33,591 nucleotides of DNA from a bacterium (GTDB taxonomy: Bacteria > Spirochaetota > Spirochaetia > Treponematales > Rectinemataceae): NCBI GenBank assembly GCA_021286735.1, contig JAJTBU010000002.1:1-33591 (forward strand), in the 5' to 3' direction. Positions within the stretch are counted from its first letter, which is position 1, and every line of letters starts with the position of its first letter. The notes beneath the pieces were generated by a model. The model was not told the origin of the DNA. It saw only the letters and a list, made by a program, of their open reading frames with translations, and did not search any database. Positions 3,375 to 22,966 of the stretch are shown here, in pieces. Both the position numbers and the translations under genes were made by a program.

Positions 3375-3384
3375 GAGCCCCTCC

Positions 3385-3915
3385 TCAATATCGGTCGGCG
3401 GCGAACTGAACCCAGCCCCCCGCCCGCACCATCGCCATCTCGAAATCGCCGAGGACGAAGGGCACCGTCAGCTGGTTCCCGCCGTCCCGCGCCGCGAAAC
3501 GCAAGGTCCTGTGCTCCGCGTCGAAAACCAGGTCGGCCGGGGCGCCCGAGAAGCGCTCGAACACCTCGGCGATCGTGGCCTTCGGCAGCTCCACCGCCAC
3601 CATGCCGCAGTTGAACATGTTCTGGCGGAAGATGCGCGCGAAGCTTTCGGCCACCACGATGTTGATCCCGTTGGCCTCGAGGGCCCAGGGCGCGTGCTCC
3701 CGCGAGCTGCCGCAGCCGAAGTTGGCCCTCGAGATCACCGCCCCCTTGCCAGAAAGGTCGGCCGCGCGGTCGAAGCCGCGCAGCGAAAGGTCCTCGAAGC
3801 AGAAGGGCCCGAGCGCCTCCCTGGAATCCTCGTTCAGGTAGCGCGCCGGAATGATCTCATCGGTGTTGATGTCGTCGCGATCGAGAAAAAGCAATGGGCC
3901 GCCTAGGGTCTTCAT
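3385..3915 (-). CDS. leuD: 3-isopropylmalate dehydratase small subunit
   Basis: This encodes 176 residues, the swivel-domain subunit that pairs with LeuC to isomerise 2-isopropylmalate to 3-isopropylmalate (and citramalate to the methylmalate in the cimA route). DDINTDEIIPARYL at the N-terminus and the loop NFGCGSSREHAPWAL are diagnostic for aconitase-superfamily small subunits. The latter supplies substrate-binding Ser and Arg. IFRQNMFNCGM is also family-typical. The ATG at 3915 is preceded by AAAGGAGG at about nine bases. The 102-base gap to leuC contains a large hairpin, listed separately, so leuD expression could be set independently of leuC within the same mRNA. Confidence 0.95.
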   Translation of the reverse strand: MKTLGGPLLFLDRDDINTDEIIPARYLNEDSREALGPFCFEDLSLRGFDRAADLSGKGAVISRANFGCGSSREHAPWALEANGINIVVAESFARIFRQNMFNCGMVAVELPKATIAEVFERFSGAPADLVFDAEHRTLRFAARDGGNQLTVPFVLGDFEMAMVRAGGWVQFAADRY

Positions 3916-8800: not shown

Positions 8801-9855
8801 AGCTTCTCGCTCACTCCGGCCGACTCGAAGGTGGCCATCTCGTTCAAGACCGCGCAGGCGGCCGCGCAGAGCGGCATCGCCAGGGCGGCGCCGGTCCCCT
8901 CTCCCAGCCGCATGCCCAGGCGCAGCAGAGGCTTGAGCCCCAGGAATTCCAGCATCAAAGCGTGTCCGGCGTCGCCCGAGACGTGCGTCCCGATCATGTA
9001 CGCCCTGGCCAGCGGACAGAGCGCGGCGGCCAAGAGCGCGGCCGCCCCCGAGATATACCCGTCTATCAGCACCGGGACCCGCCGGGCGGCCGCCGCCAGC
9101 ACGACCCCCGCCAGGGCGCCGATCTCGTAGCCTCCCACCGCCGCCAGCACGCCGATGGGATCGGAAGCATCGGGATTGTGCAGGGCGAGCGCCGCCTCGA
9201 TCACCGCGATCTTGCGCGCCAGGCCCGCGTCGTCCACGCCTGTGCCCCGACCGACCAGCTCGGGCACGCCGCGGCCGGTGAGGACAGCCGCCATGGCCGT
9301 GGAGGCGGTCGTGTTCCCTATGCCCATGTCCCCCGTCGCCGCGATGCGGAAGGGCCGCGCCGCGAACTCCTCCTCGAAGACCTCGATGCCGGTCTCCAGG
9401 CTCCGGACCGCCTGGTCGCGCGACATCGCCGGCCCCCGGGCGAAGTTGCCGGTGCCCCTGGCGATCTTGCGGTGGTGGATGGGCAATGCCGGGTCGAAGT
9501 CGCCGGCCACGCCCGCGTCCGTCACCACGACGCGCGCCCCCGCGCGGCGGGCCAACACATTGATCGCCGCCCCGCCGGCGACGAAGTTGAGCACCATCGC
9601 CTTGGTCACATCGGCCGGATAGGCGCTAACGCCCTCGGCGCAGACTCCGTGGTCGCCCGCCATCACGAAGACGGCGCCCGGCTCCGCGCTGGGGGCGGCG
9701 CTGCCCTCTATGCCCGCGATCCGCACCGACAGGTATTCCAGGTCGCCCAGACTGCCAGCGGGCTTGGTCAGAGCGGCCTGCCGGCGCGCCGCCGCCTCGG
9801 CGGCCTTCCGATCCGTCGGGATGATCGAGGCTATCGTCGCCTCAAGTTTTGTCAT
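8797..9855 (-). CDS. cobT: Nicotinate-nucleotide--dimethylbenzimidazole phosphoribosyltransferase
   Basis: This encodes 352 residues, the usual length. It transfers phosphoribose from nicotinate mononucleotide to a lower-ligand base, giving the alpha-ribotide for cobamide nucleotide-loop assembly in the cytoplasm. The N-terminal LTKPAGSLGDLE is the most conserved CobT segment. GDHGVCAEGVSAYP, ATGDMGIGNTT and the C-terminal RLGEGTGAALAMPL follow, the last with the catalytic Glu at about 319. It is first in an operon with the BtuFCD-like importer and lies behind a cobalamin riboswitch, so it is made when B12 is low. The ATG at 9855 has AAGGAA eight bases upstream. cobU and cobS are found on the opposite strand about 7 kb away. 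Confidence 0.96.
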   Translation of the reverse strand: MTKLEATIASIIPTDRKAAEAAARRQAALTKPAGSLGDLEYLSVRIAGIEGSAAPSAEPGAVFVMAGDHGVCAEGVSAYPADVTKAMVLNFVAGGAAINVLARRAGARVVVTDAGVAGDFDPALPIHHRKIARGTGNFARGPAMSRDQAVRSLETGIEVFEEEFAARPFRIAATGDMGIGNTTASTAMAAVLTGRGVPELVGRGTGVDDAGLARKIAVIEAALALHNPDASDPIGVLAAVGGYEIGALAGVVLAAAARRVPVLIDGYISGAAALLAAALCPLARAYMIGTHVSGDAGHALMLEFLGLKPLLRLGMRLGEGTGAALAMPLCAAACAVLNEMATFESAGVSEKL

Positions 9856-9876
9856 GGTCGGGTTCCTTGTGCATTC

Positions 9877-9994
9877 GACGCGGTGTTGGCAGACCTATCG
9901 CAGCCCGCTTTAGCGGACGGAGAATGAGGACAAGAGGTCTGCGGTTGGGGAAAATGGAAGCGTGGGCTTCATTATTCAACACCCAGTGAATAAT
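9877..9994 (-). promoter_or_regulatory. Riboswitch expression platform with competing hairpins
   Basis: This is the leader between the riboswitch and cobT. Three local hairpins can be drawn: 9971-9978 with 9987-9994 (perfect 8-base arms); 9957-9961 with 9966-9970, followed on the minus strand by CATTTTCC; and an outer 8-base pair, 9889-9896 with 9935-9942, enclosing CCGC/GCGG at 9905-9916. In addition, GGTGTTG (minus, 9983-9977) is complementary to CAACACC (minus, 9888-9882). That pairing would exclude the first hairpin. It ends about 27 bases before the start codon. This looks like a switchable platform; which form is ON or OFF cannot be decided by eye. Confidence 0.45.
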
Positions 9995-10021
9995 TGGACG
10001 ATGTCCGCGCTCAAGGCGCGG

Positions 10022-10180
10022 CCGCGCGGTCGGTCTCCTGGCTCGAAAGCATTCCTCCGGAATCCCGCGGCCTTCCCGCTTTTCGCAGTGGCCTTGGACG
10101 TGGTTCTTCGCTTCCTTACAGTGCCTGGGGGCGCGCCGGTGTCGCACCGGCTTCCCGATTAAGCCCATTGGCGCCGCGAC
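10022..10180 (-). ncRNA. Cobalamin (AdoCbl) riboswitch aptamer
   Basis: On the minus strand, conserved B12-aptamer elements appear in order. GGGAAGCCGGTGCGACACCGGC is split here as GGGAAGCC and GGTGCGACACC. It is followed by GCGCCCCCAGGCACTGTAAGG, a G/C helix region with GCCACTGCGAAAAGCGGGAAGG, and finally the B12 box GAGCCAGGAGACCGACC at 10044-10028. Order, spacing and box sequences are those of the cobalamin riboswitch class. It lies 170-330 bases upstream of cobT, so it should repress cobT and the importer when cobalamin is plentiful. The limits are approximate, because the closing P1 helix is not clear-cut. Confidence 0.93.
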
Positions 10181-10186
10181 AGGGAA

Positions 10187-10215
10187 ACTATAAGGTCAGC
10201 CGGCGCCCCTGTCAA
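10187..10215 (-). promoter_or_regulatory. Sigma-70-type promoter of the riboswitch operon
   Basis: The minus strand has TTGACA (10215-10210), a 17-base spacer and TATAGT (10192-10187). This is nearly consensus. Transcription would begin around 10180, right at the 5' edge of the riboswitch aptamer. Confidence 0.85.
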
Positions 10216-10261
10216 CGTGGCGCCTCCTGTGCGATACTCGAGGCCAGGACGGGAGACCAGC

Positions 10262-10627
10262 ATGATACAGGTTTTCGGGACGAAAAAATGCCGGGACACG
10301 CAGAAGGCTCTCCGCTTTTTCAAGGAGAGGGACGTGCGGATCCAGTTCCGCGACATCGACGAGAAGGCTCCGAGCCCCGGCGAGCTCGACGACATGGCGG
10401 GAGCCCTGGGCGGCTTCGAAGCCCTCCTCGACTTGAAAGGCCGAGCCGCGGCGGCCCGAGGCCTCGCCTTCATGGCCTACGACGCGCGCGAGGAACTCCT
10501 CGCCGATCCCGCCCTCCTCCGCACGCCCCTCGTGCGCGCCGGCAGGGGCCGAGCCGCCGCCGGCCCCGACGAGAAAGCCTGGAAGGAGTTCGCGAAAGCC
10601 GACCTCGCGGCGAATAAGGGGAGTTGA
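10262..10627 (+). CDS. ArsC/Spx-family thioredoxin-fold protein
   Basis: This encodes 121 residues. MIQVFGTKKCRDTQKALRFF is the beta-alpha opening of the ArsC/YffB/Spx family, with the single Cys at residue 10. The C-terminal LLRTPLVRAGRGRAAAGPDEKAW matches the RP-hvxxG...G motif of the family. There is no second Cys, so a Cys-dependent arsenate reductase using glutaredoxin, or a YffB-like protein of unknown reaction, are both possible. No ars genes are nearby, so arsenic function should not be assumed. Start ATG 10262 has GGGAG eight bases upstream; TGCGATACT just before it could be an extended -10. It ends seven bases before the HAD gene starts. Confidence 0.8.
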   Translation: MIQVFGTKKCRDTQKALRFFKERDVRIQFRDIDEKAPSPGELDDMAGALGGFEALLDLKGRAAAARGLAFMAYDAREELLADPALLRTPLVRAGRGRAAAGPDEKAWKEFAKADLAANKGS

Positions 10628-10629
10628 GC

Positions 10630-11427
10630 ATGGAGATGAACGACATCAAGAACCTCGAGACGATCCGCGGCAAAGCCGCCTTCATCATCGACATGGACGG
10701 CGTGATCTACCACGGCAACCGGCTCCTGCGCGGCGCGGCCGAGTTCGTCGCCTGGCTCCAGGCGAAAGGCAAGCGCTTCCTCTTCCTGACCAACTCCAGC
10801 GAGCGCTCGCCCATCGAGCTTTCGCAGAAGCTCGAGCGCCTAGGCATCGACGTCGAGCCCGAGCACTTCTACACGAGCGCCCTGGCCACCGCGGGCTTCC
10901 TGTCGAGCCAGCGCCCCGGCGGCTCGGCCTACGTGATCGGCGAGCCCGGCCTGATCAACGCGATGTACGAGGCCGGCTACACGATGAACAACGTCAACCC
11001 CGACTACGTCGTCGTCGGCGAGGCGCGGTCCTACAACCTCGACGCGATCGAGCGGGCGGTCAAGCTCGTCCTGGGCGGCGCCCGCCTCATCGGCACCAAC
11101 CCCGACCTCACCGGCCCGGCCGAGGGCGGCCTCGTCCCCGCCTGCGGCGCCCTGGTAGCGCCCATCGAGCTGGCCACGGGGCGCAAGGCTTACTTCGTGG
11201 GCAAGCCCAACCCCCTCATGATGCGCCACGCCCTCATCAGGCTGGGCGCGCGCCGCGAGGAGACCGCCATCGTCGGCGACCGCATGGACACCGACATCAT
11301 CGCCGGCATCGAATCCGCCATGGAGACCGTCCTCGTGCTCTCGGGCGTCACGACCCGCGAGGAGCTCGCGCGCTTCGCCTACGGCCCCAGGCACGTCCTC
11401 GAGGGCGTCTTCGAAATCCCCGACTGA
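10630..11427 (+). CDS. HAD-IIA family sugar-phosphatase (NagD-like)
   Basis: This encodes 265 residues. HAD motif I is DMDGV at 21-25 with Asp nucleophile 21 and acid/base Asp 23. Motif II is FLTNSS at 52-57, motif III is the Lys in VGKPNP, and motif IV is IVGDRMDTDI. The cap domain between motifs II and III (YVIGEPGLINAMYEAGYTMN...YVVVGEARSYN) marks class IIA, which includes NagD, phosphoglycolate and 4-nitrophenyl phosphatases. The physiological substrate is unknown. ATG 10630 is preferred over the in-frame TTG at 10624 because AAGGGGAG then lies six bases upstream. It probably forms a two-gene operon with the ArsC-like gene. Confidence 0.88.
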   Translation: MEMNDIKNLETIRGKAAFIIDMDGVIYHGNRLLRGAAEFVAWLQAKGKRFLFLTNSSERSPIELSQKLERLGIDVEPEHFYTSALATAGFLSSQRPGGSAYVIGEPGLINAMYEAGYTMNNVNPDYVVVGEARSYNLDAIERAVKLVLGGARLIGTNPDLTGPAEGGLVPACGALVAPIELATGRKAYFVGKPNPLMMRHALIRLGARREETAIVGDRMDTDIIAGIESAMETVLVLSGVTTREELARFAYGPRHVLEGVFEIPD

Positions 11428-11434
11428 TCCGCAT

Positions 11435-11479
11435 CCTGTTGCGGATTAGTCTTGACTATTCCGCAACAGGCTGCATACT
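11435..11479 (+). promoter_or_regulatory. 36-base palindrome around the promoter of the AAA/DUF4143 gene
   Basis: Bases 11435-11451 (CCTGTTGCGGATTAGTC) and 11454-11470 (GACTATTCCGCAACAGG) are inverted complements over 17 bases with one mismatch (T/T at 11446/11459) and a two-base centre. The centre overlaps TTGACT (11452-11457). With CATACT at 11474-11479 (16-base spacer), this makes a plausible promoter whose -35 lies exactly in the dyad. Transcription would start at or within a base or two of the ATG at 11487. A repressor site, probably for self-control or for an unlinked regulator, is inferred. Confidence 0.65.
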
Positions 11480-11486
11480 TGTCATT

Positions 11487-12641
11487 ATGAAACGATCTCA
11501 GAGCGATAAGATTCTTTCGGACCTCAGGCGCAAGATGGTGTTTCTGTCGGGACCGCGCCAAGTGGGGAAATCCTGGCTTGCGCGAGAGCTGGCGGGCCAG
11601 TTCGAGAAGCCGCTCTACCTCAACTGGGACAATCGGCAGGACCGCGAGATCATCCTTCGCCAAGCCTGGCCAGGAGAGTCAGACCTTCTCGTCTTCGACG
11701 AAATCCATAAGATGCCGGAATGGAAGAACTACCTGAAGGGCGTCTATGATACGAAGCGAGCGGCTACGGCCATCCTCGTCACTGGGAGCGCGCGGCTAGA
11801 GACTTTCAGGCAGTCCGGAGACAGCCTTGCCGGAAGGTATTTCCACCACAGGCTGCTGCCCATAAGCCCTTCCGAAGCGATGCAGGCCGGCGAATCCAGG
11901 GACCTCGCGCATTTTCTCGAACGAGGCGGTTTCCCGGAACCCTTCCTCGCCGAGGATGCCGCGGATGCCGGGCGCTGGCGCCGATTTTACCTCGATGGGC
12001 TGATCCGCGAGGACATTCTTAGCTTCGAGAATATCAGGGAGCTGCGGGCCATGAATCTCCTCGTGGAATTGCTGCGCAGCCGCGTCGCCTCGCCCTTGAG
12101 CTACCAGAGCCTCTCCGAAGATATCGGCGCCGCGCCGAATACCGTAAAGCGCTATATCGAGATACTCGAGGCGCTCTACATCGTGTTCCGCATCTATCCG
12201 AACAGCCGTTCCGTGGCGCGAGCCCTCGCGCAGCAGCCCAAACTGTATTTCTACGATACCGCCCTCGTGGAGGCCTCAGGCGCGCGGCTGGAAAACCATG
12301 TGGCGCTCGCGCTCTTGAAAGAGCTTTATCGCAGGGAGGACGCTGATGGCGTCCGGCGTCAGCTCGGCTATCTTCGTACCAAGGAAGGCAGGGAGACTGA
12401 TTTCCTGATATCTGTTGAGGATACACCTCGCCTTGCCGTGGAAGTGAAAACGAGCGATCGCGATATCAGTCCTGGCCTTGCGTATTTCTGCTCCAAATAT
12501 GACATGCGGGGGCTGCAGTTGGTGGGCGACCTGCGCCTGGAATACGATCAAGACAATATCGAAGTTCGAGAGGTCCAGGGCTGGCTAGGGAAAATTGAAA
12601 CGTATCAAGAAATAGATTACATTAAGAAATTCTCAAGATAA
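11487..12641 (+). CDS. AAA ATPase with DUF4143 domain
   Basis: This encodes 384 residues. Walker A is GPRQVGKSW (22-30) and Walker B is DLLVFDEIHKM, followed by VTGSARLETFRQSGDSLAGRYF, the sensor region of AAA_14 ATPases. The C-terminal half is DUF4143. It includes a winged-helix-like segment (LSYQSLSEDIGAAPNTVKRYIEILEALYIVFRI) and a PD-(D/E)XK-like end (GRETDFLISVEDTPRLAVEVKTS). These orphan ATPases are common and mobile in bacteria and archaea, with no settled function; a nuclease-like or toxin/defence role has been speculated. No Shine-Dalgarno is visible before ATG 11487, and the promoter predicts a leaderless mRNA. Base composition is lower in GC than neighbours and drops sharply at the 3' end. 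Confidence 0.85.
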   Translation: MKRSQSDKILSDLRRKMVFLSGPRQVGKSWLARELAGQFEKPLYLNWDNRQDREIILRQAWPGESDLLVFDEIHKMPEWKNYLKGVYDTKRAATAILVTGSARLETFRQSGDSLAGRYFHHRLLPISPSEAMQAGESRDLAHFLERGGFPEPFLAEDAADAGRWRRFYLDGLIREDILSFENIRELRAMNLLVELLRSRVASPLSYQSLSEDIGAAPNTVKRYIEILEALYIVFRIYPNSRSVARALAQQPKLYFYDTALVEASGARLENHVALALLKELYRREDADGVRRQLGYLRTKEGRETDFLISVEDTPRLAVEVKTSDRDISPGLAYFCSKYDMRGLQLVGDLRLEYDQDNIEVREVQGWLGKIETYQEIDYIKKFSR

Positions 12642-12834
12642 TATCAAGAATATAGAAAAGATGGGCAAAAAATATACTGTTTAGGGTAGAGAGAAAACCA
12701 AGTGAAGTGTATCAAAAACTACATTGTTGTGTATGGGGCATGTAAGCCATTTTCGAAGGGTTTTCTTCTTTTTAATTCTTGTGAACAGTTCAATAATAAT
12801 CTAATATAATAAGAAACTATAACAGAAGGGAAAA
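12642..12834 (+). promoter_or_regulatory. AT-rich gap with lipoprotein promoter
   Basis: These 193 bases are strongly AT-rich, unlike the rest of the window. Just before the lipoprotein gene are TGAACA (12782-12787), a 17-base spacer and a perfect TATAAT (12805-12810). AAGGG lies five bases before the ATG. I see no other gene, tRNA or repeat in this gap. Confidence 0.55.
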
Positions 12835-13983
12835 ATGAAAAAGCTTTTACTGATAATGATTATTATGTTAACGCTTCTTCTAGCGGGATGTCAGTGGTTT
12901 CATTATCCTGTATCTACAACAACAACTTTATTGAATAATAGCCCAGCTACAACAACTTCTAGTTCAACAACCACCTCAACAACTACAACTACAACACTTC
13001 CCAGGGCTCCTGCACCAATATTTTCAATAACCGGTGGCGAGTATGAATCTCCGGTACAGATCAGCTTATCAACGGTGGTTAGTGATGCAACAATAAGATT
13101 TACACTAGATGGTACAGATCCCGTAGGTGGAAATGGTATTGTATATACTAACCAACTTATACGATTAAGTGAACCGAGAAATACAATAAATGCTCGTACA
13201 TATAAAGCAGGAATGTCAGTATCAGATTTAGCAACAAATGAATACATAATTACAAGTGCTGTCTACGAACCAACCTTCAATGTTCCTTCAGGCTTTTATG
13301 AAAGTGGCCAAAAAATTATTTTTGAAACTCTAACTGTCGATGCAGAGATAAATTACTCGATAAATAATGGCGCGTCGATAAAATATTCTGGACCATTCGA
13401 TATGCCTTTTGGAATACCTACACGTATAACTGCGGTAGCATCAAAAAATGGAGTTGTTTCTCCAACTATATCGAATTTATATTGGACAGCTACAGAAGAA
13501 GGATGCATCATTTTTTATGATAAAGGTTTTTATTCGGATGGCTGGCGCTACCTTGAAACAATACCCAACGATAGAATTCCCTGCCCTCATGGTTGGCAAA
13601 TTACGCGAATACCATGGGGGGGCAAGGGAATATATATTGGAGCAAATAATTCTTCCATGGGAGGAGGAAGGCTTAATACAAGCATAATTGTTAATACTTT
13701 AGGCGAGGGAAAGTATGCTGCAAAATTATGTTATGACCTTGTATATGGTGGACATGATGATTGGTACTTGCCAAATCGGAATGAAGTAAAAGCTCTTTAT
13801 CATAATCTATATGAGTATGGCTACTCAGATTTATGCAAATTTGGGTATTGGACTTCTGAAGAATACAACGCAGATAAAGCATACTACAATCATTTCATAA
13901 AATATTATTATACAGAAGATTGGGAACGAAATGAAGATAAGAACAGCGATTATTTTGGCGCTTGGCCAGTGAGACAATTTTAA
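12835..13983 (+). CDS. AT-rich lipoprotein with chitobiase-C-like repeats and a DUF1566/Lcl-type C-terminal domain
   Basis: This encodes 382 residues. Residues 1-18 form a type II signal ending LLLAG before Cys19, a clear lipobox. Residues 25-58 are a Thr/Ser stalk (runs of STTT). Two tandem beta-sandwich repeats of the chitobiase/hexosaminidase C-terminal kind follow, the first IFSITGGEYESPVQISLST..ATIRFTLDGTDP, the second FNVPSGFYESGQKIIFET..AEINYSINNG. The C-terminal 130 or so residues resemble DUF1566/Lcl domains: AKLCYDLVYGGHDDWYLPNRNEV, then YWTSEEY and a final AWPVRQF. Such proteins are surface-exposed, but the ligand is unknown. Codon use is AT-rich throughout, in contrast to all neighbours except the adjoining flanks, so recent transfer is likely. 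The function is not recognised. Confidence 0.83.
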   Translation: MKKLLLIMIIMLTLLLAGCQWFHYPVSTTTTLLNNSPATTTSSSTTTSTTTTTTLPRAPAPIFSITGGEYESPVQISLSTVVSDATIRFTLDGTDPVGGNGIVYTNQLIRLSEPRNTINARTYKAGMSVSDLATNEYIITSAVYEPTFNVPSGFYESGQKIIFETLTVDAEINYSINNGASIKYSGPFDMPFGIPTRITAVASKNGVVSPTISNLYWTATEEGCIIFYDKGFYSDGWRYLETIPNDRIPCPHGWQITRIPWGGKGIYIGANNSSMGGGRLNTSIIVNTLGEGKYAAKLCYDLVYGGHDDWYLPNRNEVKALYHNLYEYGYSDLCKFGYWTSEEYNADKAYYNHFIKYYYTEDWERNEDKNSDYFGAWPVRQF

Positions 13984-14053
13984 AAAAACTTTAGCATATG
14001 CTGTGAGAGGAATGTCCAGGGGGAATATCAAAAATGTAAAAACTGCTTTTATT

Positions 14054-15367
14054 TCAAGCGCCGCCCTCGATCAGCCGCGGCCACCCCCGCCCCGCGCCGC
14101 TCCCGTCGCCGACGCCCGCCGAGCTCCCTGCGCTGCCCAGCCGCAGGATCGCGCTGTAGCGCGGCTTTTTTGCCTCGCGCAGGCTCTCGTACGAGGCGTA
14201 GCGTTCCAGGCGGAACTCGCCCTCCTCCAGCTTCTCCCAGCGGAAGAAGGGCGCCTCGGCCTTGGCTTTCCGGCAGGCCGCGAGGGTCGCCGCGAACCAG
14301 TCGCGGAAATCGGGATCGCCCGAGGCCCAATCGACCGGATCCTTCTCGAAGAGGTCGGGCTTGCGCGCGATTGCGGATTCCTGCCCCATGTAGCAGAAGC
14401 CCAGGCCGGGGATGAAGTGCGAGAGAAGGGTCCATGAGGCGAGCAGCGCCCGGTCGGCGAAGCGGCCCGCCGCCCGCGGCTGGTCGTGGTTCTCGAGGAA
14501 GCGCAGCTTGAGCGCTTTGGCCGGGTAGAGGGCGCGCTGGGTGTCGAGGTACTCGAGGTACTCCTCGGGCCCGCTCCCGCCCTTCCAGGCGCGCTCGAGC
14601 CGCTCCCAGCCGTCGTAGTCGTAGCTCGCGTCGAAGGCGGCGTGGAGCTCGGGCTCGGACCAGGCGCCGAAGCCTTCGTCGCGCATGCGGAGGAGGAAGC
14701 CCGGGTGGACCGACTCGGCCAGCCAGGCCAGGGGATGGCGCTCGCTCCGGAGCCCCGGGTCGTACTGGTTCACGCGCTGGCGCGCCTGCTTCCAGAAGTC
14801 CACCGGCACGAGGGAGGCCACGTCGCAGCGGAAGCCGTCCACGCCCTCGTCGCGCCACTGCCGCAGCGTCGAGATCAGCTCCATCCAGAGCTCTGGCGAC
14901 GACGAATAGTCGAAATCGACAACGTCCGACCAGTCCGCGCACTTGCGTCCCAGGCGCGCTCCCGCGGGCGGCGCCTCGAGCTCGCCCCGGGCGGAGGCCG
15001 GCCCCAGCCCCTCCAGCATGAACCATTCGGGATGCTCGCGGGCCAGGACCGAATCGGGCGCCGCGTGGTTGTAGACCACGTCCATCATCACCTTGAGGCC
15101 GAGCCCGTGCGCCGCGGCCAGGAAGGCGCGAAAATCCTCGATCGTCCCCAGCGCGGGATCGACCGCCTTGTAGTCGGCGATGGCGTAGGGGCTCCCCATG
15201 CCGCCCTTGCGGGCGGTCACGCCGATCGGGTGGATGGGGGTCAGGTAGATCCAGTCGCAGCCCAGGGCGGCTATTCCCGCGAGCCGCGGGATGGCGGCGG
15301 CGAAGGTGCCCTCGGGCGTAAAGTTTCGCGGGAATATCTGATAGATGGCGCTGGTATCGCTGATCAT
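14054..15367 (-). CDS. GH13 alpha-amylase-family glycosidase, cytoplasmic
   Basis: This encodes 437 residues starting MISDTSAIYQIFPRNFTPEG. The four GH13 signatures are present: DVVYNH (96-101), GFRCDVA with nucleophile Asp182, WLAES with acid/base Glu218, and FLENHD with transition-state Asp295. There is no signal peptide, so it should act on internal or imported alpha-glucans or oligosaccharides. Exact specificity (amylase, maltodextrinase, trehalose- or sucrose-type) cannot be read from the motifs. It lacks the long N-terminal domain of neopullulanases. ATG 15367 with GAGGA eight bases upstream is favoured over the in-frame start 48 bases earlier. It faces the lipoprotein gene convergently and has no partner gene beside it. 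Confidence 0.87.
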   Translation of the reverse strand: MISDTSAIYQIFPRNFTPEGTFAAAIPRLAGIAALGCDWIYLTPIHPIGVTARKGGMGSPYAIADYKAVDPALGTIEDFRAFLAAAHGLGLKVMMDVVYNHAAPDSVLAREHPEWFMLEGLGPASARGELEAPPAGARLGRKCADWSDVVDFDYSSSPELWMELISTLRQWRDEGVDGFRCDVASLVPVDFWKQARQRVNQYDPGLRSERHPLAWLAESVHPGFLLRMRDEGFGAWSEPELHAAFDASYDYDGWERLERAWKGGSGPEEYLEYLDTQRALYPAKALKLRFLENHDQPRAAGRFADRALLASWTLLSHFIPGLGFCYMGQESAIARKPDLFEKDPVDWASGDPDFRDWFAATLAACRKAKAEAPFFRWEKLEEGEFRLERYASYESLREAKKPRYSAILRLGSAGSSAGVGDGSGAGRGWPRLIEGGA

Positions 15368-15496
15368 CGCTTTCGTCCTCGCGGACCGCGCATCGAGCCG
15401 CGGCGGCCGCGGCACCAGTATAAGGCCGAAGGGCGACCCGAGTCACGCGGCCCCGCTCCCGCGCGCGAGCCCCCGAGTCGCGGCGGGCTTTTATCG

Positions 15497-15525
15497 CTTT
15501 GCTTTTATATATTTATTTTTATATA
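15497..15525 (+). promoter_or_regulatory. Promoter of the LUD gene
   Basis: TTGCTT, then a 17-base A/T-only spacer, then TATATT, in a sharply AT-rich patch inside GC-rich DNA. It sits about 35 bases before the LUD start codon. The AT patch also separates it from the divergent GH13 gene, for which no equally good promoter is visible. Confidence 0.6.
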
Positions 15526-15558
15526 TTATGTTCATCATTTGATTGCAGGAGCGACACT

Positions 15559-16185
15559 ATGGAAAATAAATGGAACGAACTGGCCTCAGACGCGAGCGTC
15601 GAGAGAGCCGCCGCAGCCCTCGCGGCCAATGGTTTCGAGGTGGCGATCGTCGAGAACGCCGCGGCCGCAAAGGCCAAGGCCCTCGAATGGATCCCCGCGG
15701 GCGCCGAAGTTTTCACCATGGTCTCGGCGACGGTCGATTCGATCGGCCTCTCGGCGACGCTCAACGGATCGGGCGGCTACGCCTCGGTCCGCGCCTCCCT
15801 GGGCGCCATGAACGGCGCCACCCAGGGCCGCGAGATGCGCAAGCTGGGCGCCGCCCCCGACGTGTCCGTCGGCTCCGTCCACGCGCTCACGGAGGACGGC
15901 AAGTTCCTCGTGGCGTCGCTCACCGGCAGCCAGCTTCCCGCCTACGCCTACGGCGCCGGCACCGCTATTTTCGTCGTAAGCACGAAAAAGATCGTCAAGA
16001 ACTTGGACGAGGCTTGGAACCGCCTGGTCGAACACGTCGTGCCCAGGGAAAGCGTCCGCGCGCGCAAAGCCTACGGCCTGCCCGAGAGCTTCAGCACCTA
16101 TCCTTCGAAAGTGCTGATCTTCAACCGCGAGATCCAGCCCGGCCGCGTCAAGGTCATCCTCCTCAAGGAAGACGCGGGATTCTGA
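15559..16185 (+). CDS. LUD-domain protein (LutC/DUF162 family)
   Basis: This encodes 208 residues that are essentially one LUD domain. Typical segments are FTMVSATVDSIGLSATLNGSGGY near the start, VGSVHALTEDGKFLVASLTGSQLPAYAYGAGTAIFVV in the middle, and the closing KVLIFNREIQPGRVKVILLKEDAGF. LutB/LutC proteins take part in lactate utilisation, but stand-alone LUD proteins like this one, without LutA/LutB Fe-S partners nearby, have no established reaction. ATG 15559 has AGGAG upstream and its own promoter. A separate promoter lies before the next gene, so it is probably monocistronic. Confidence 0.85.
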   Translation: MENKWNELASDASVERAAAALAANGFEVAIVENAAAAKAKALEWIPAGAEVFTMVSATVDSIGLSATLNGSGGYASVRASLGAMNGATQGREMRKLGAAPDVSVGSVHALTEDGKFLVASLTGSQLPAYAYGAGTAIFVVSTKKIVKNLDEAWNRLVEHVVPRESVRARKAYGLPESFSTYPSKVLIFNREIQPGRVKVILLKEDAGF

Positions 16186-16234
16186 CGGGAGCGCGGCGCG
16201 GCCGCACCCAGTCGAGCGCGGCGCGGGTCCAAGG

Positions 16235-16264
16235 TTGACCATGGCGGCGCGGAAGCGCTACTCT
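16235..16264 (+). promoter_or_regulatory. Promoter of the flavin reductase-cobU-cbiR-cobS run
   Basis: TTGACC (16235-16240), an 18-base spacer and TACTCT (16259-16264), with the start codon 32 bases further on. A 13-base direct repeat, GAGCGCGGCGCGG, lies just upstream at 16189-16201 and 16214-16226. No cobalamin riboswitch is visible here, in contrast to the cobT operon. Confidence 0.6.
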
Positions 16265-16296
16265 TTGGACAAGACCACACGCAGGGGGCCGCCGCC

Positions 16297-16821
16297 ATGG
16301 AACGTTCACCGATCTCGCTCGAGGATTTCCGCTTCGATCAGTCCATCATCGCCAAGCGCTGGATGCTGCTCACCGCCGGCGCCTTCTCGCCCGGCGCCTT
16401 CAATTCGATGACGATCTCCTGGGGAAGCGTCGGCCAGATCTGGAACAAGACCTTTTTTCAAGTCGTCGTGCGCCCAACCCGCCATACGATGACTTTCCTC
16501 GAGGCCGGCGACGCCTTCACGCTCTGCGTCTTCCCCGAGAGCCGCAAGAAAGCCCTGTCTCTCCTCGGCGCGAAGTCCGGCCGCAACGGAGACAAGATCG
16601 CCGAGTCGGGGCTCACGCCGGTTCCATCGACTCGCGTGGCGACGCCGGGCTTCGACGAGGCCGAACTCATCGTCGAGTGCCGCAAGATGTACTGGCAGGA
16701 TCTCGATCCCTCGCACTTCCTCGAGCCGGAGATCATGGACAACTATCCCAAGAAGGATTTTCACCGCGCCTACTTCGGCGAAGTGCTTGCGGTGAGCGGC
16801 ACCGACGCCTACCGCGCCTAA
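16297..16821 (+). CDS. Flavin reductase-like FMN-binding split-barrel protein
   Basis: This encodes 174 residues of the flavin reductase-like domain. RWMLLTAGAFSPGAFNSMTISWGSVGQIWNK is the FMN-contact strand-loop-strand, VVVRPTRHTMTFLEAGDAFTLCVFP is the typical second half, and the C-terminal DFHRAYFGEVLAV is also characteristic. Members bind FMN and use it for reduction of diverse substrates. Because it leads a run of cobamide genes, a role in corrin cobalt reduction or reduced-flavin supply is possible but only inferred; near-identical domain proteins occur in many contexts. The start is ATG 16297, with an AGGGGG ribosome site. It ends 11 bases before the next gene. Confidence 0.82.
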   Translation: MERSPISLEDFRFDQSIIAKRWMLLTAGAFSPGAFNSMTISWGSVGQIWNKTFFQVVVRPTRHTMTFLEAGDAFTLCVFPESRKKALSLLGAKSGRNGDKIAESGLTPVPSTRVATPGFDEAELIVECRKMYWQDLDPSHFLEPEIMDNYPKKDFHRAYFGEVLAVSGTDAYRA

Positions 16822-16832
16822 GGGAGGTGCCT

Positions 16833-17231
16833 ATGGACGCGCTTCTCAAAAAGCTCAATTACAAGGGCGGGATGATAGTGGCGCTCAACGCGCCGGACGA
16901 ATTCGCCCCGATCGCCGAGGGTTGGAAGCGCGAAGCTCCCGTATCCGAGGCGCTCCGGGAAGACGGCGCCTCCTTCCTTCTCGTTTTCGCCAGGAGCGCG
17001 GCCGAGGTCGCCTCCATCGTCGCCCCCGCGATAGGCCGGCTGGCGCCGGACGCCGTCTTCTGGGTCGCCTTTCCCAAGCAGACCTCGAAGCGCTACGCGT
17101 CCGACATCAACCGCGACAAGCTCTGGCCCCTCCTGGCCGAGATGGGTTTCGCGCCTTGCCGCAACATCGCCGTCGACGAGGACTGGTCGGCGCTGCGATT
17201 CTCCAGGATCAAGGAAGGGAAGCGGGCATGA
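16833..17231 (+). CDS. DUF3052-like small protein
   Basis: This encodes 132 residues. The layout matches DUF3052-type proteins: KKLNYKGGMIVALNAPDEF at the N-terminus, a central FLLVFARSAAEVASIV, then FWVAFPKQTSKRYASDINRDKLWPLLAEMGF and a closing NIAVDEDWSALRFSR. No catalytic motif or membrane segment is visible, and the function of the family is not known to me. The ATG at 16833 has GGGAGG seven bases upstream. The gene ends as ATGA with cobU, so it is translationally coupled to the cobamide genes. Confidence 0.62.
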   Translation: MDALLKKLNYKGGMIVALNAPDEFAPIAEGWKREAPVSEALREDGASFLLVFARSAAEVASIVAPAIGRLAPDAVFWVAFPKQTSKRYASDINRDKLWPLLAEMGFAPCRNIAVDEDWSALRFSRIKEGKRA

Positions 17232-17731
17232 GGACCCTCGTAACCGGCGGCGTCAAGTCGGGGAAGTCGGGCTACGCCCTCGTCCTCGCCGAGGAGTTCG
17301 CCGAGCCCCGCTTTTTCCTCGCCACCGCCGAGGCCTTCGACGACGAGATGAAAGCGCGCATCGCGAGGCATTGCGAGGATCGCGCGGGCCGCTTCACGAC
17401 CGTCGAGGAGCCGCTCGCGATCCAGGACAAGTTGTGCGAGCGCATGCTCCTCGACTGTGTGCCGCTCTGGCTCAACAACATGCTCTACTACGGCCGCGAG
17501 GCGCAGGTGGAAGGCGCGGTCACGGAATTCATCGAAAGGCTGCCGCGCGACATCGTCATCGTGACGAACGAGATAGGCTGGGGCTTCATCCCCGCCGATC
17601 CCCTGTCGCGCCGCTACGGCGACCTGCTCGGGCTGGTCAACGCGCGCCTCGCATCCGCCTGCGACCGCGTCGTCCTGATGGTCGCGGGGATCCCCCTCGC
17701 GGTGAAGGGCCCGCCCGGACCGGCGCGATGA
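17228..17731 (+). CDS. cobU: Adenosylcobinamide kinase / adenosylcobinamide-phosphate guanylyltransferase
   Basis: This encodes 167 residues. CobU phosphorylates adenosylcobinamide and then adds GMP, giving AdoCbi-GDP for CobS. The P-loop GGVKSGKS lies at residues 7-14. The family-typical VTNEIGWGFIPADPLSRRYGDLLGLVNARLASACDRVVLMVAGIPLAVKG is present at the C-terminus, with the TNE(V/I)G and GxxNxxxA segments. The protein is slightly shorter than CobU of enterics but within range. It starts with an ATGA overlap from the DUF3052-like gene and ends with an ATGA overlap into cbiR. It works with cobS two genes downstream and with cobT of the riboswitch operon. Confidence 0.93.
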   Translation: MRTLVTGGVKSGKSGYALVLAEEFAEPRFFLATAEAFDDEMKARIARHCEDRAGRFTTVEEPLAIQDKLCERMLLDCVPLWLNNMLYYGREAQVEGAVTEFIERLPRDIVIVTNEIGWGFIPADPLSRRYGDLLGLVNARLASACDRVVLMVAGIPLAVKGPPGPAR

Positions 17732-18447
17732 CGATAGCGGCGCCCTCCTGGCAGGTTCCCGGCACCTGGCTCGAGAACCTCGACGCGTTGGCCGACATCG
17801 ACTGGGTAAGGGGCGTGGAGCTTCTCTTTTTCTCGTACGACAGGGAGGCGCGCCGCGATTTCGCCGCCGAGCGCGATCGGATCGCCGCCTGCGTTGACCG
17901 CTTCTCCTTCAGCCTGCATCTGCCCGACCCCTTGAGCCCTGAGGCGCTCGACCTCGTCGCCGAGACGGAAGCTTTCGTCGGCCTCTACGTCTTCCACCCC
18001 TATTCCGCCGAGGCCGGCGCGGGCGACGCCGGAAGCGGCGCGATCGGCGGCATCGAGGAATGGGCGCGGACCGTCGAAAAGTTGTGCGATTTATATGGCG
18101 AGGCAAGGTTCGCGATGGAGTACACGGGAGCCTCGGCGTTCGCGCGCGGGCTGGAGCGCCTTTCCCGCGCTCGGCGCGCGCCGGCAATCTGCGCCGACAC
18201 GGGGCGCCTCGCCCTGGACGGCGCCGACCCGGCGGCGTGGATTCAAAATCGCGCAACGTCAATCGCCGAGCTGCACTTGCACGCGGCGCGCGGAGGCAAA
18301 GACCACTTCCCCCTCGGCGCCGAAGATTTATGGCTTCCCGCGGTCGCCGCCGAGGCGGCGGCGCGGAACTGGCGCGTCGTCCTCGAGACCTTCTCGCTCG
18401 AAAGGACGCGCGCTTCCTACGATTGCCTCGAAAGGTGGCTGCGATGA
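17728..18447 (+). CDS. cbiR: Cobamide-remodelling phosphodiesterase CbiR (TIM-barrel, AP-endonuclease-like)
   Basis: This encodes 239 residues of xylose-isomerase/AP-endonuclease-2-like fold. The opening PSWQVPGTWLENLDAL and VRGVELLFFSYDRE match the CbiR family described from Akkermansia muciniphila. That enzyme hydrolyses the phosphodiester of the cobamide nucleotide loop, so the lower ligand can be exchanged. Candidate metal ligands are placed as expected for the fold: His64 (SLHLP), His90 (HPYS), Glu131 (MEYTG), Asp157 (CADTG), His183 and His185 (ELHLH), Asp192/His193 (GGKDHFPLG) and Glu220 (LETFS). It sits between cobU and cobS with 4-base overlaps on both sides, which strongly supports a cobamide role. 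A generic sugar isomerase is the alternative. Confidence 0.8.
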   Translation: MTIAAPSWQVPGTWLENLDALADIDWVRGVELLFFSYDREARRDFAAERDRIAACVDRFSFSLHLPDPLSPEALDLVAETEAFVGLYVFHPYSAEAGAGDAGSGAIGGIEEWARTVEKLCDLYGEARFAMEYTGASAFARGLERLSRARRAPAICADTGRLALDGADPAAWIQNRATSIAELHLHAARGGKDHFPLGAEDLWLPAVAAEAAARNWRVVLETFSLERTRASYDCLERWLR

Positions 18448-19253
18448 AAAACAAGCAGGGCGCGGACAGGTTCCTGACGGTCTTCACGCTCATGTCGCGC
18501 GTTCCGGTGAAGCGCGCCTTCGAGGCCGACTTCTCGCGCGCCGATTTCTGGATCCCCGCGATATCGCCCATCGTCTCCATCGCGGCGATAGGTGGCTTCG
18601 CCGCGGGGCTGGCGCTGTCGGGAAACCTCGCGCTGGCCGCCGCGGCTTCGATCGCGGTCCAGTACTTCTGCTTCAACCTCTTCCACTTCGACGGCCTCGT
18701 AGACACCGCCGACGCCATGCTCCCCGCCGCCCCGCCCGAGCGCCGCCTCGAGATACTCAAGGACCCGCGCGTCGGCACCTACGGCTTCTTCTGCGGCGCC
18801 CTGGCGCTCGGCCTGCGCGCGGGGGCGATTGCAGTGCTCGCCGAGGGCGGCGTCCTCTTCTCGGCTCTCGTCGCCGGCCTTCTGGCGGCGCCGGCGGCTG
18901 GCAGGCTCGCCTGCGCCCTCGTGCCCCTCGCCGCGAAACCAGCCAAGCCCACCGGCCTCGGCGCCCTCATGGGAGGCTTCTCTAAAAAACGCGTCGCGGC
19001 GGGAGCGGCGCTCGCCTTCCTCCCCGCCCTCGCCTGGAGCGCGGCCGCCGGCGGCTGGCTCCTCCCCGCCCTCGCCATCGCCTCGGCCCTCGCCTCGGGC
19101 TTCGGCGCGGCCCTCTTCGTCTCGAAGCTCTATTCCGCCAAAGTCGGCGGCTTCACCGGCGACGCGTTGGGCGCCGCCGTGGAGTTGGGCGAGATCGCCG
19201 CGCTGCTGCTCCTGGGCGTCGCCGTGCGGTTTATAGGATGGCTGCCCGCCTAG
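18444..19253 (+). CDS. cobS: Adenosylcobinamide-GDP ribazoletransferase (cobamide synthase)
   Basis: This encodes 269 residues, an integral membrane enzyme that joins AdoCbi-GDP to alpha-ribazole(-phosphate) to complete the cobamide. FHFDGLVDTADAML is the conserved acidic metal-binding motif, and LKDPRVGTYGFFCGALAL is the second family signature. Several Ala/Leu-rich membrane helices fill the remainder. The N-terminus TVFTLMSRVPVK resembles the F-T-R(I/V)P motif of CobS. ATG 18444 overlaps the cbiR stop as ATGA; the longer open frame upstream is a shadow of cbiR. It ends 19 bases before the convergent DMT gene, with a GAGCCC/GGGCTC hairpin (19257-19274) between them. Confidence 0.94.
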   Translation: MKNKQGADRFLTVFTLMSRVPVKRAFEADFSRADFWIPAISPIVSIAAIGGFAAGLALSGNLALAAAASIAVQYFCFNLFHFDGLVDTADAMLPAAPPERRLEILKDPRVGTYGFFCGALALGLRAGAIAVLAEGGVLFSALVAGLLAAPAAGRLACALVPLAAKPAKPTGLGALMGGFSKKRVAAGAALAFLPALAWSAAAGGWLLPALAIASALASGFGAALFVSKLYSAKVGGFTGDALGAAVELGEIAALLLLGVAVRFIGWLPA

Positions 19254-19272
19254 CGGGAGCCCGCGCGGGGGC

Positions 19273-20169
19273 TCAGGCCGCGCGCCGCCGCTCGGCCAGC
19301 ACGGCGTAGACGATGCCGCCGACGATGAGGGCCGCGCCGACCGCGAAGCCCAAGTCGAGCTTCTCGCCCAGCGCGAGGGCGCCCATCGCGGCCGCCACGA
19401 CAGGCTGGATCGGGTAGAAGAGCGAGCAGGTGCTCGCTTCTATGAGGGAGAGCCCCTTGTTCCAGAGGAAATTCGGCAGCGCCGTGGCCAGGCTCCCCAG
19501 ATAGAGCACACAGAGCAGGTTCGTCGCCGAGAAAAGCCCGCCGTGCGGGACCAGCGCGAGTTCCACGCCCGCCGCGGGCAGGGCGCAAGCGGTCGCGATG
19601 AAGACCGCCAGGGCCGTGACGGAGAGCGGATCGTATCGGCGCATGATCCCCCGCACGTACACCGAGACGAAGGCCCATATCAGCACGGAGACGAAGGAGA
19701 AGGCCACGCCGAGGGCCGTGCCCGGATTCCCCGCCCCGCCGAGGACCACGTAGGTCCCGGCCAGGCTCGCCGCAGTGGCCACCGCCTTGCTCAAAGTGAA
19801 TTTTTCGCCGGCGAAGAGCACCGCGAAGAGCGTGATGAAGACAGGGTTCGTCGCGTTGATCAGGGAGGCGGTCGACGCCCCCGCGTACTTGGTGCCGAGG
19901 ATGTTCGCCGCGACCGCGAGGAAATACCCCACCGCGCCGATGAAGAGGAAGGCGCCGCGGTCCGCCCGCTCGATCCGCAGGCTCTTCCGGCCGGCGCGCG
20001 CCATGGCGTAGAGCGAGGCCGAGGCGACCGCGTAGCGCAGGAAGAGCAGGGTGACGGGCGGGATCGTCTCCAGCGCGATCTTCGTTACGACGTAGAGACT
20101 TCCCCATATGGCCGTCGTGAGGGAAAGGTACAGATAGGCGGCGCGGCGCCCGGCGGAACCAACAACCAT
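19273..20169 (-). CDS. DMT-superfamily (EamA) permease
   Basis: This encodes 298 residues with ten hydrophobic segments arranged as two EamA repeats. Repeat 1 includes LTTAIWGSLYVVTKIALETIPPVTLLFLRY, and AGASTASLINATNPVFITLFAVLFAGEKFTLSKAVA closes it. Repeat 2 ends with STCSLFYPIQPVVAAAMGALALGEKLDLGFAVGAALIVGG. Such carriers export or import amino acids, nucleotides or other metabolites; the substrate cannot be deduced. ATG 20169 is chosen because GGAGGAG lies ten bases upstream; an earlier in-frame ATG has poor spacing. It is divergent from the copper operon and convergent with cobS, with no operon partner. Confidence 0.87.
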   Translation of the reverse strand: MVVGSAGRRAAYLYLSLTTAIWGSLYVVTKIALETIPPVTLLFLRYAVASASLYAMARAGRKSLRIERADRGAFLFIGAVGYFLAVAANILGTKYAGASTASLINATNPVFITLFAVLFAGEKFTLSKAVATAASLAGTYVVLGGAGNPGTALGVAFSFVSVLIWAFVSVYVRGIMRRYDPLSVTALAVFIATACALPAAGVELALVPHGGLFSATNLLCVLYLGSLATALPNFLWNKGLSLIEASTCSLFYPIQPVVAAAMGALALGEKLDLGFAVGAALIVGGIVYAVLAERRRAA

Positions 20170-20246
20170 GCTTCGAACACTCCTCCGGATGAGCATACCT
20201 CCGCGCGGGGAAGTTGTCCTAGTGCGCGGACGCTGCATTGCCCCCC

Positions 20247-20318
20247 TTGCCGCGCGGCGAGGATAGTTGTATATTCACCACGAAAGTTCTTACCCCACCC
20301 CACCAGGGTAGGGATAAG
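20247..20318 (+). promoter_or_regulatory. csoR-copA promoter and CsoR-type operator
   Basis: TTGCCG (20247-20252), a 17-base spacer and TATATT (20270-20275) form the promoter. Downstream, 20289-20318 contains an imperfect dyad with arms CTTACCCCACCC and GGGTAGGGATAAG. CsoR proteins recognise G/C-tract inverted repeats with TAC/GTA flanks, so this is the probable operator. Its place just past the start site would block elongation or open-complex formation. Confidence 0.6.
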
Positions 20319-20357
20319 GATAGCATGAACAGCCAAGAAACCGAGAGGAGCCCTACC

Positions 20358-20633
20358 ATGAACCACTGCAGCGCCGAGAGCCAAAAGGCGCTCACGCTTT
20401 TGAAGACCGCCCGCGGGCAGGTGGACGCCGCCATGAGGATGATCGACGAAGACCGCTACTGCATCGACGTGTCCAAGCAGGTCCTGGCGGCGGCGGCCCT
20501 GCTCAAGAAGGCGAACCTCGTCGTCCTCCGGCAGCACATCGACACCTGCGTGAAGGACGCCGTTAACACCGACAAGGGCCAGGAGAAGATCGAGGAGATC
20601 GCGATGATCCTGGAGCGCTACTTAGGAGACTGA
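20358..20633 (+). CDS. csoR: Copper-sensing repressor CsoR
   Basis: This encodes 91 residues of the all-helical CsoR/RcnR family. The Cu(I) ligand triad is in place: Cys35 (RYCIDV), His60 and Cys64 (RQHIDTC), which marks copper rather than nickel or formaldehyde sensing. In the family, copper binding releases the operator and turns on copA. ATG 20358 has GAGAGGAG seven bases upstream and gives the usual N-terminus. An in-frame ATG at 20325 has a closer, weaker site and would add 11 residues. The stop lies two bases before the copA start, so the repressor and pump are co-transcribed and self-controlled. Confidence 0.93.
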
Positions 20634-20635
20634 CG

Positions 20636-22966
20636 ATGATCAAGACTGAAACGCTCGAGCTGCGGGGCATGACCTGCGCGTCCTGCGCCGCCGCCAACGA
20701 GCGGGCGGTGCGAAAGGTGGCCGGCGTGGCGGAGGCCTCGGTGAACCTCGCGACCGAGACGCTCAAGGTGAGCTTCGACGACGCCGCGGCGAACCTCGAC
20801 GACATAAAGGCTGCCGTGAAGAAGGCGGGCTACGAGGCCGTGGAGCGGGCGGCTCCGGCGGCGCAGAAAGCCAGGGCGACAGGGGCTGGGGCCGCCGGCG
20901 GCGCCGCCGCGCCAGGAATGACAGCGTCCGCAAACCCCGACGACGAGCACCAAGCCGCCAAGGAGAGGGAGATTCGGAGCATGAAGGCGAAGCTCGCCGT
21001 ATCGGCCGCCTTCTCGCTTCCCCTCCTCTATATCGCCATGGGACACATGCTGGGCTGGCCCCTGCCGGCCGCCCTCCACCCGATGGAGCACCCCGTCCTC
21101 TTCGCCCTCATCCAGCTCGCCCTCGCCCTGCCCTCCGTCGCGGCGGGTTGGCGCTTCTATGCGGTCGGATTCCGGTCGCTTTTCCACGGCGCGCCGAACA
21201 TGGACAGCCTCATCGCCATGGGAACGAGCGCCGCGATGCTCTACAGCCTCCACTCGGTGGCGCGGATACTCGGGGGCGACCACGCCGCCACGAACGCCCT
21301 CTATTTCGAGACGGTGGGCATGATCATCACCCTGATCCTCTTGGGCAAGACGCTCGAGGCGATCAGCAAGGGCCGAACCTCGGACTCGATAAAGAAACTG
21401 ATGGGCCTGAGGCCCAAGACCGCTGCCGTGCTCCGCGACGGCATCGAGGTGGAGACGCCGATCGACGATGTCCAGGTCGGCGACGTCATCCTCGTGCGCC
21501 CCGGGGAGCGCGTGCCGGTGGACGGCTCGGTGCTCTCCGGCGAGGGCGCCGTCGACGAATCCATGCTGACCGGCGAGAGCCTGCCCGTCGACAAGGCGCC
21601 GGGCTCGGCGCTGACGGGCGGCACCATCAACAAGAACGGGGCGCTGACCTTCCGCGCCGAGCGCGTCGGCGCCGACACGGCCCTGGCGCGCATCATAGCG
21701 CTGGTTGAGGAGGCGCAGGGCTCGAAGGCGCCCATCGCCCGGCTCGCGGATACGGTTTCGGGCATCTTCGTGCCGGCGGTCTTCGCGATCGCGGTGGTTT
21801 CGGCCGCGGCCTGGCTCCTCTCCGGGCAGACGGCGGTGTTCGCGCTGACGATCTTCGTGGCGGTGCTGACCATCGCCTGCCCCTGCGCCCTTGGCCTCGC
21901 GACGCCGACCGCCATCATGGTCGGCACGGGCGCCGGCGCCGAGATGGGCATTCTCTTCAAGTCGGGCGAGGCGCTGGAGACAGCGCACAAGGCCAAGGTC
22001 GTGGTTTTCGACAAGACGGGCACCATCACCGAGGGCAAGCCGGTCATGACGGACTTGGTCCCCGCCGAGGGCGTGGACGAGTCCAGGCTCCTCGCGCTGG
22101 CCGCCGCGGCCGAGAAGGCCTCGGAGCACCCGCTGGGCGAGGCGGTGGTGGCGGCCGCGGCCGACCGGGGCCTCGCGCTCCCCGCAGTGGAGCGTTTCCA
22201 GGCCCTGCCCGGCCGCGGCATCGAGGCGCTGGTCGCGGGGGAGGCCTTCCTCCTCGGCAACGCCAGGCTGATGGCCGAGCGGGGCGTGGATGCCAGAGCC
22301 CTCGACGGCGCGGCCGCCCGCCTCTCCGGCGCCGGCAAGACCCCCATGTACGCCGCGGCGGGCGGCCGCCTCCTCGGCCTCATCGCCGTCGCCGACGTGG
22401 TCAAGCCGAGCAGCGCCGCCGCCATCGCCCGCCTCAAGGCCATGGGCATCGCGACGGCGATGATCACCGGCGACTCCCGGCCCACGGCCGAGGCCATCGC
22501 CCGCGAGGTCGGCATCGACCGCGTCCTCGCCGAAGTGCTGCCGAGCGACAAGGCGGCCGAGGTCGCCGCCTTCCAGAAGACCGGCGCCGTCGTGGCCATG
22601 GTAGGCGACGGCATCAACGACGCCCCCGCCCTCGCCCAGGCCGACGTCGGAATCGCCATCGGCTCGGGCACCGATGTGGCCATCGAGAGCGCCGGCATCG
22701 TCCTCATGCGCGGCGACCTCACCGACGTGGCCGCGGCGCTCGACCTTTCGCGCCACGTGATCAGGAACATAAAGCAGAACCTGTTCTGGGCCTTCGGCTA
22801 CAACGTCCTGGGCATCCCCGTGGCCGCCGGCGTCCTCCACGCCTTCGGCGGCCCCCTGCTCTCGCCGATGATCGCCGCCGCCGCCATGTCGATGAGCTCT
22901 GTGTCGGTGGTCTCCAACGCGCTCAGGCTCAGGCGATTCCGCCCGGCCCGCGCCGTCAAAACATGA
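20636..22966 (+). CDS. copA: Cu(I)-exporting P1B-type ATPase
   Basis: This encodes 776 residues. There is one N-terminal heavy-metal domain with [10 protein letters not shown] (Cys14, Cys17), then a low-complexity Ala/Gly linker (about 75-100). Eight membrane helices are expected. TGES lies at 312-315 (actuator), the transport motif CPC at 415-417, the phosphorylation site DKTGT at 459-463, the HP motif in SEHPLGEA, and [11 protein letters not shown] at the hinge. FGYN in helix 7 and MSMSS in helix 8 are the Cu(I)-specific residues of subgroup P1B-1. It pumps cytoplasmic Cu(I) out across the inner membrane. ATG 20636 has AGGAG eight bases upstream and follows csoR immediately. Confidence 0.97.

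Follow-up and report, generated by a model that had tools for sequence, protein, structure and literature searches.

Can a CbiR-type cobamide phosphodiesterase lose a metal-ligand histidine of its active site and still open the nucleotide loop of cobamides? The question is raised by a gene at positions 17728-18447 (plus strand) of a spirochaete contig of 33,591 nucleotides (G000:C217). The window analysed here is this entire contig, which belongs to a 2.54 Mb metagenome-assembled genome (MAG, 76.8% complete) of the Rectinemataceae with named relatives that are almost all Spirochaetes MAGs. The gene lies between cobU and cobS. Its product has an altered active site (EYTG, DTGR), with Arg160 (codon cgc, 18205-18207, plus strand) at the position of the metal-ligand histidine of the DxGH motif. 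A preliminary description of the locus had proposed a CbiR with a full set of metal ligands, in an organism that takes up foreign cobamides and exchanges their lower ligand. The uptake and remodelling part is well supported by a match to the CbiR model, the position in a tree, the operon context, a riboswitch-led cobT-btuFCD cluster, and the presence of cobamide-dependent enzymes without ring-building genes. The full set of ligands did not hold up, as the DxGH histidine is replaced by Arg160, a position that had been omitted from the list of ligand candidates.

Identity of the CbiR-like protein

The 17728-18447 product is best read as a CbiR-type protein, because it matches model NF041277 (CbiR), groups with CbiR proteins in a tree, and is encoded in a conserved operon context. 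NF041277 is its sole NCBIfam match (E 6e-24, residues 1-235 on 1-248 of 249), and no Pfam model matches. The CbiR assignment of the preliminary description thus stands as far as the best model is concerned, although the score of 84.9 bits does not reach the equivalog cut-off of 105 bits. All sampled proteins with variant active sites (see below) score under this cut-off, including L040, L046 and L058 (86-97 bits), whereas the neighbouring canonical protein L053 passes it (112.8 bits). In view of its own score and those of its relatives, we term the window protein a CbiR variant, not a standard member. The score alone is insufficient to establish identity, since the same model also matches another TIM (triosephosphate isomerase) barrel of this genome with 67 bits. 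The gene for this paralogue is found near a sugar ABC (ATP-binding cassette) transporter gene and a LacI-type regulator.

The tree was computed for 76 CbiR and 7 other TIM-barrel proteins, with the variable active-site columns left out; the CbiR of Akkermansia muciniphila itself is not among the sequences. It places the window protein within a CbiR group of 61 rows, with a support of 99 in the Shimodaira-Hasegawa-like approximate likelihood ratio test (SH-aLRT). The seven non-CbiR TIM barrels form an outgroup with support 83 and long branches. The TIM-barrel fold claimed earlier is borne out by the AlphaFold2 model, which has eight strands, a mean predicted local distance difference test score (pLDDT) of 94.9 and a predicted template modelling score (pTM) of 0.92.

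The altered predicted metal site

In the AlphaFold2 model, His64, His90, Glu131, Asp157, His183 and Glu220 are located where strands 3-8 end on the C-terminal side, or immediately behind. A profile alignment with Escherichia coli endonuclease IV (Nfo) pairs E131 with E145, D157 with D179, H183 with H216, H193 with H231, and E220 with E261, and places Arg160 opposite His182, the histidine of the DxGH motif. The hhalign probability of this alignment is only 49%, so that the pairing of residues rests on the shared motifs. His185, previously listed as a ligand candidate, aligns with Asn218 of endonuclease IV, which is not a ligand. We take the third zinc site of Nfo to be formed by His182, Asp229 and His231. 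By this comparison, the conserved His, Asp and Glu ligands of predicted sites 1 and 2 are present in the window protein, whereas its predicted third site lacks one ligand, because Arg160 occupies the His182 position. A ligand lacking in the alignment is an outcome that the preliminary description had itself set against its proposal, and it is found at this one position. In a trinuclear relative, zinc is bound via a matching set of residues that includes Asp179 and His182 (PMC7076025).

The replacement is not confined to the window. An alignment of 98 distinct CbiR proteins reveals three covarying active-site signatures, the canonical one and two variants. The DxGH position is occupied by histidine in 88 of the 98 proteins and by another residue in ten (six Arg, two Cys, two Val), namely the window protein and those of nine further genomes from the same GTDB family. 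Each of the ten has Tyr132, beside the bridging Glu, at a position where nearly all other proteins have Asn. The predicted site-1 and site-2 residues His64, His90, Glu131 and Asp157 are invariant (98/98), as is His183 in all readable rows and Glu220 in every row that reaches this position. The ten altered proteins, together with L049 from the same family, form a supported group in the tree (SH-aLRT 100), and all ten genomes keep the order cobU-cbiR-cobS.

The second variant signature combines DxAH (Ala159) and HxN (Asn185) with a change of Asp192 to Gly, Ala, Ser or Glu. It is present in eight proteins (L049, L058, L064, L111, L114, L115, L123 and L168), at three positions in the tree: L049, L168, and a clade of six rows, for which no cobU was found adjoining cbiR (cbiR-cobS only). 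A single origin is marginally rejected by the approximately unbiased (AU) test (p 0.04), with L168 on a long branch. An origin in three lineages appears fairly but not strongly supported by these data. A sign test for joint changes cannot reach significance, because there are only three independent pairs. The ratio of nonsynonymous to synonymous substitution rates (dN/dS) between variants is 0.15-0.43 where defined, which supports purifying selection only weakly, since synonymous sites are saturated or undefined.

As the predicted ligands of sites 1 and 2 are invariant, both variant signatures rearrange the same predicted site, namely the third, and keep the other two. Tentatively, this may mean that the third site is labile, with the histidine lost in one clade, and DxAH, HxN and the loss of Asp192 in at least three lineages. 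The variants could then differ in the range of cobamides that they cut, in terms of the lower ligand, or work with two metals by a mechanism distinct from that of their trinuclear relatives. We regard this extension as possible rather than probable.

Partner genes and cobamide metabolism

The CbiR-like gene is one of five tightly packed genes on the plus strand (16297-19253), which encode a flavin-reductase-like protein, a 132-residue protein, CobU, the CbiR-like protein and CobS. The last four are coupled by ATGA overlaps of 4 bases each (17228-17231, 17728-17731, 18444-18447). The tight linkage of the CbiR-like gene to cobU and cobS had been noted before and is exact. The whole interval had also been described as a cob operon, which applies from 17228 onwards, but not to 16297-17231, where two other genes are found. 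CobU (17228-17731, plus strand), the adenosylcobinamide kinase / adenosylcobinamide-phosphate guanylyltransferase, has the P-loop GGVKSGKS and scores 166 bits with PF02283, well above the gathering threshold of 27, and 150.7 bits with NF004469, slightly short of the cut-off of 161. CobS (18444-19253, plus strand), the adenosylcobinamide-GDP ribazoletransferase, is encoded by the only copy of the gene found in the genome. It scores 125.5 bits with PF02654 (gathering threshold 23.2) and stays under the NCBIfam equivalog cut-offs (TIGR00317, 90.4 bits against 110).

A second cluster, on the minus strand, is led by a cobalamin riboswitch (10011-10193; RF00174, 91.3 bits, gathering threshold 31.5). 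Its first gene, cobT (8797-9855), encodes a nicotinate-nucleotide--dimethylbenzimidazole phosphoribosyltransferase that passes the TIGR03160 equivalog cut-off (429 bits against 319). The genes for a BtuF-like corrinoid-binding protein (7868-8800; PF01497), a BtuC-like permease (6837-7868, start approximate; PF01032, 283 bits) and a BtuD-like ATPase (5950-6840; PF00005, 86.5 bits) follow. The best NCBIfam matches of the first two are the BtuF model NF002894 (129 bits, under the cut-off of 234) and the BtuC model NF007081 (also under its cut-off); for the ATPase, models of corrinoid, heme and F420-0 ABC ATPases rank first, all under cut-off. For the cobU operon, no riboswitch was seen in a sub-threshold Rfam search of 15000-19400 with E up to 1. 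The four functions and the importer are all found as described, but they span 5950-19253, about 13 kb, and not 10 kb.

Relatives most often have the arrangement cobU-cbiR-cobS or cobU-cbiR-cobT-cobS, which is shared by dozens of genomes from the same order. The cobU-cbiR-(cobT)-cobS grouping is more than chance, and its order is conserved across the taxonomic order. Some individual loci are unusual. In a distant relative, cobU and cbiR appear in one open reading frame (L023:949-2235), a possible natural fusion, and a single open frame on the reverse strand of L016 (locus coordinates 2255-3697) contains matches to cobU and cobS, a possible CobU-CobS fusion. L130 (G343), from the family of the window, is a canonical CbiR that resembles the proteins of a different family within the order, which may reflect transfer or a binning error. 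Mis-binning or transfer may also account for the spirochaete-type CbiR proteins L121 and L122 in MAGs that are recorded as Acidobacteriota and Accumulibacter.

The genome encodes methylmalonyl-CoA mutase, MeaB, MetH-like and PduO-type adenosyltransferase proteins. A PF00590 search of the genome for corrin-ring methylases gave only proteins that by inspection are RsmI-like, and CbiC, CbiB and CbiZ were not found in the MAG. The absence of ring genes, previously noted for the window, thus extends to the available genome, but it is provisional, because the MAG is only 77% complete. The family pattern agrees with it: among 30 genomes, CbiC is found in one, CbiB in four, and CbiZ in none. BluB had no match above cut-off in the genome, with only weak nitroreductase-type matches below. 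A variant CbiR is nevertheless carried by one family member (L044/G297) whose CbiC and CbiB point to ring synthesis.

Proposed function and alternatives

The genes, their order and homology, the covariation and the fold prediction are what the analysis shows. The locus that they describe is probably a cobamide salvage and remodelling system, with a CbiR that is altered in the third site and still hydrolyses cobamides. The BtuFCD-like proteins would import foreign cobamides, and CbiR would hydrolyze the phosphodiester of the nucleotide loop, yielding adenosylcobinamide phosphate (AdoCbi-P) and an alpha-riboside, via two metals held by His64, His90, Glu131, Asp157, His183 and Glu220. CobU would guanylylate AdoCbi-P directly, CobT would activate a preferred base, and CobS would join both halves to a cobamide that the methylmalonyl-CoA mutase and MetH of the cell can use. 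Without ring synthesis and CbiB, an importer of cobamides would benefit from the direct release of AdoCbi-P, because CobU takes this product onward. The enzymatic steps are all inferred, as is the use of two metals; the remodelling steps are modelled on the CbiR of A. muciniphila, an enzyme that converts adenosylcobalamin to AdoCbi-P and alpha-ribazole (Mok et al. 2020, PMC7733943). That enzyme requires anoxic reducing conditions and is inhibited by ethylenediaminetetraacetic acid (EDTA) (PMC7733943). Several points weigh against the proposed function. The score of the window protein is below the equivalog cut-off, a superfamily metal ligand is missing at Arg160, and the lack of ring genes is provisional. 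In addition, activity of the A. muciniphila enzyme was lost in many mutants with a single exchange at a conserved residue (PMC7733943).

Arg160 as an assembly or sequencing error of the MAG can be practically ruled out. A single transition (cac to cgc) would yield it, but nine further genomes of the family, which share the loss of the histidine, have Arg, Cys or Val at position 160, all with Tyr132. It is also very improbable that the protein is a sugar isomerase or epimerase, or another AP (apurinic/apyrimidinic) endonuclease 2 enzyme, that is encoded in the cob operon by chance. Foldseek ranks sugar isomerases and epimerases from the superfamily highest, with template modelling (TM) scores of about 0.6-0.7, and NF041277 weakly matches such paralogues. 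However, unrelated TIM barrels, for instance aldo-keto reductases, were also numerous among the Foldseek matches, so that the search backs the fold, not the function. Moreover, no solved CbiR structure turned up in searches of the PDB by phmmer, profile or Foldseek; phmmer found no relative there, and the profile search reached only uncharacterised TIM barrels. In agreement with the preliminary description, which had favoured CbiR over a sugar isomerase, the protein matches no isomerase family in Pfam or NCBIfam, the tree separates it from the other TIM barrels sampled, and dozens of genomes keep the gene in this operon position.

The main alternative to conserved hydrolysis is a change of specificity. 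The altered clade could have kept the fold and the operon position, and changed the reaction or the substrate, for example by specialising on one lower ligand, by acting on a different corrinoid phosphodiester, or by binding without hydrolysis. This would fit with a replacement at a position that is histidine in most CbiR proteins and its tie to Tyr132, with the second, different rearrangement in three lineages, and with the scores of all sampled variants below the CbiR cut-off. The other active-site residues and the CobU and CobS partners are retained, as expected for unchanged chemistry, and we consider the change rather unlikely. CbiR could also act mainly on cobamides that the cell already owns, in their turnover or repair, or help to recycle incomplete corrinoids once these are taken up, instead of swapping the lower ligand of imported cobamides. 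In favour of this, no BluB match above cut-off, and hence no source of a preferred base, was found, and G297 retains a variant CbiR despite CbiC and CbiB. Nevertheless, the riboswitch-led importer beside cobT and the apparent lack of ring synthesis favour the use of imported cobamides, and we regard this alternative as improbable.

Neighbouring genes

The probable first gene of the operon (16297-16821, plus strand; PF01613, 38.6 bits) encodes a flavin-reductase-like protein, for which flavoredoxin (2d5m, E 1.2e-5) is the nearest solved structure. Such a gene precedes cobU in five genomes of the family, the window genome and those of L039-L042, with homologues that are 59-66% identical. A corrinoid reductase is known in the broad PF01613-type flavin-reductase-like family (PMC4083273). 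The product shares this broad family with the corrin reductase CobR and with flavoredoxin, but flavoredoxin is nearer than CobR among solved structures. As an idea only, the protein may keep the corrinoid reduced, or supply a corrinoid or flavin reductant. The next gene (16833-17231, plus strand), preceded by aagggagg 5' of its start and translationally coupled to cobU, encodes a 132-residue protein that has no Pfam or NCBIfam match, and whose homologues in L040 and L041 occupy the same place. Beyond cobS, an ordinary CsoR-like metal-sensing repressor is encoded at 20238-20633, followed at 20636-22966 by what by inspection reads as an equally ordinary copper-type P-type ATPase.

Comparison with known systems

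The operon and CbiR are already known in kind. The clade-wide replacement of a metal ligand with a covarying neighbour, together with a second rearrangement that recurs, appears to be a new variant; we found no literature on CbiR active-site variants or on CbiR in spirochaetes, in a search that covered neither subscription papers nor the supplementary tables of the Mok et al. study. In the papers searched, CbiR is known essentially from one study of one enzyme, which did not settle its metal content or how many metals it needs to open the nucleotide loop. Natural variants with a rearranged predicted site and a kept operon offer a test of which metals matter, and of whether the site sets the preference for the lower ligand. 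Annotation by the NF041277 cut-off would miss the remodelling capacity of such spirochaetes, because the variants fall below it.

The closest known system is that of A. muciniphila, where CbiR (Amuc_1679; NF041277; PMC7733943) is likewise a TIM barrel of the AP endonuclease 2 type, encoded beside cobU, cobS and cobT. The window protein has in common with it the full-length model match and the predicted site-1 and site-2 ligands. It differs in having Arg160 and Tyr132 in place of the DxGH histidine and the Asn of ENT, in its score below the cut-off, in its origin in Spirochaetota, and in the order cobU-cbiR-cobS with 4-base overlaps. E. coli endonuclease IV belongs to the same superfamily and has alignable ligands, but acts in the repair of AP sites in DNA, has His182 where the window protein has Arg160, and is encoded outside a cob operon. 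In the CbiZ amidohydrolase pathway, cobamide remodelling likewise begins with an opening on the side of the nucleotide loop. In contrast to the CbiR route, this pathway cuts another bond, and requires CbiB to rebuild the cobamide.

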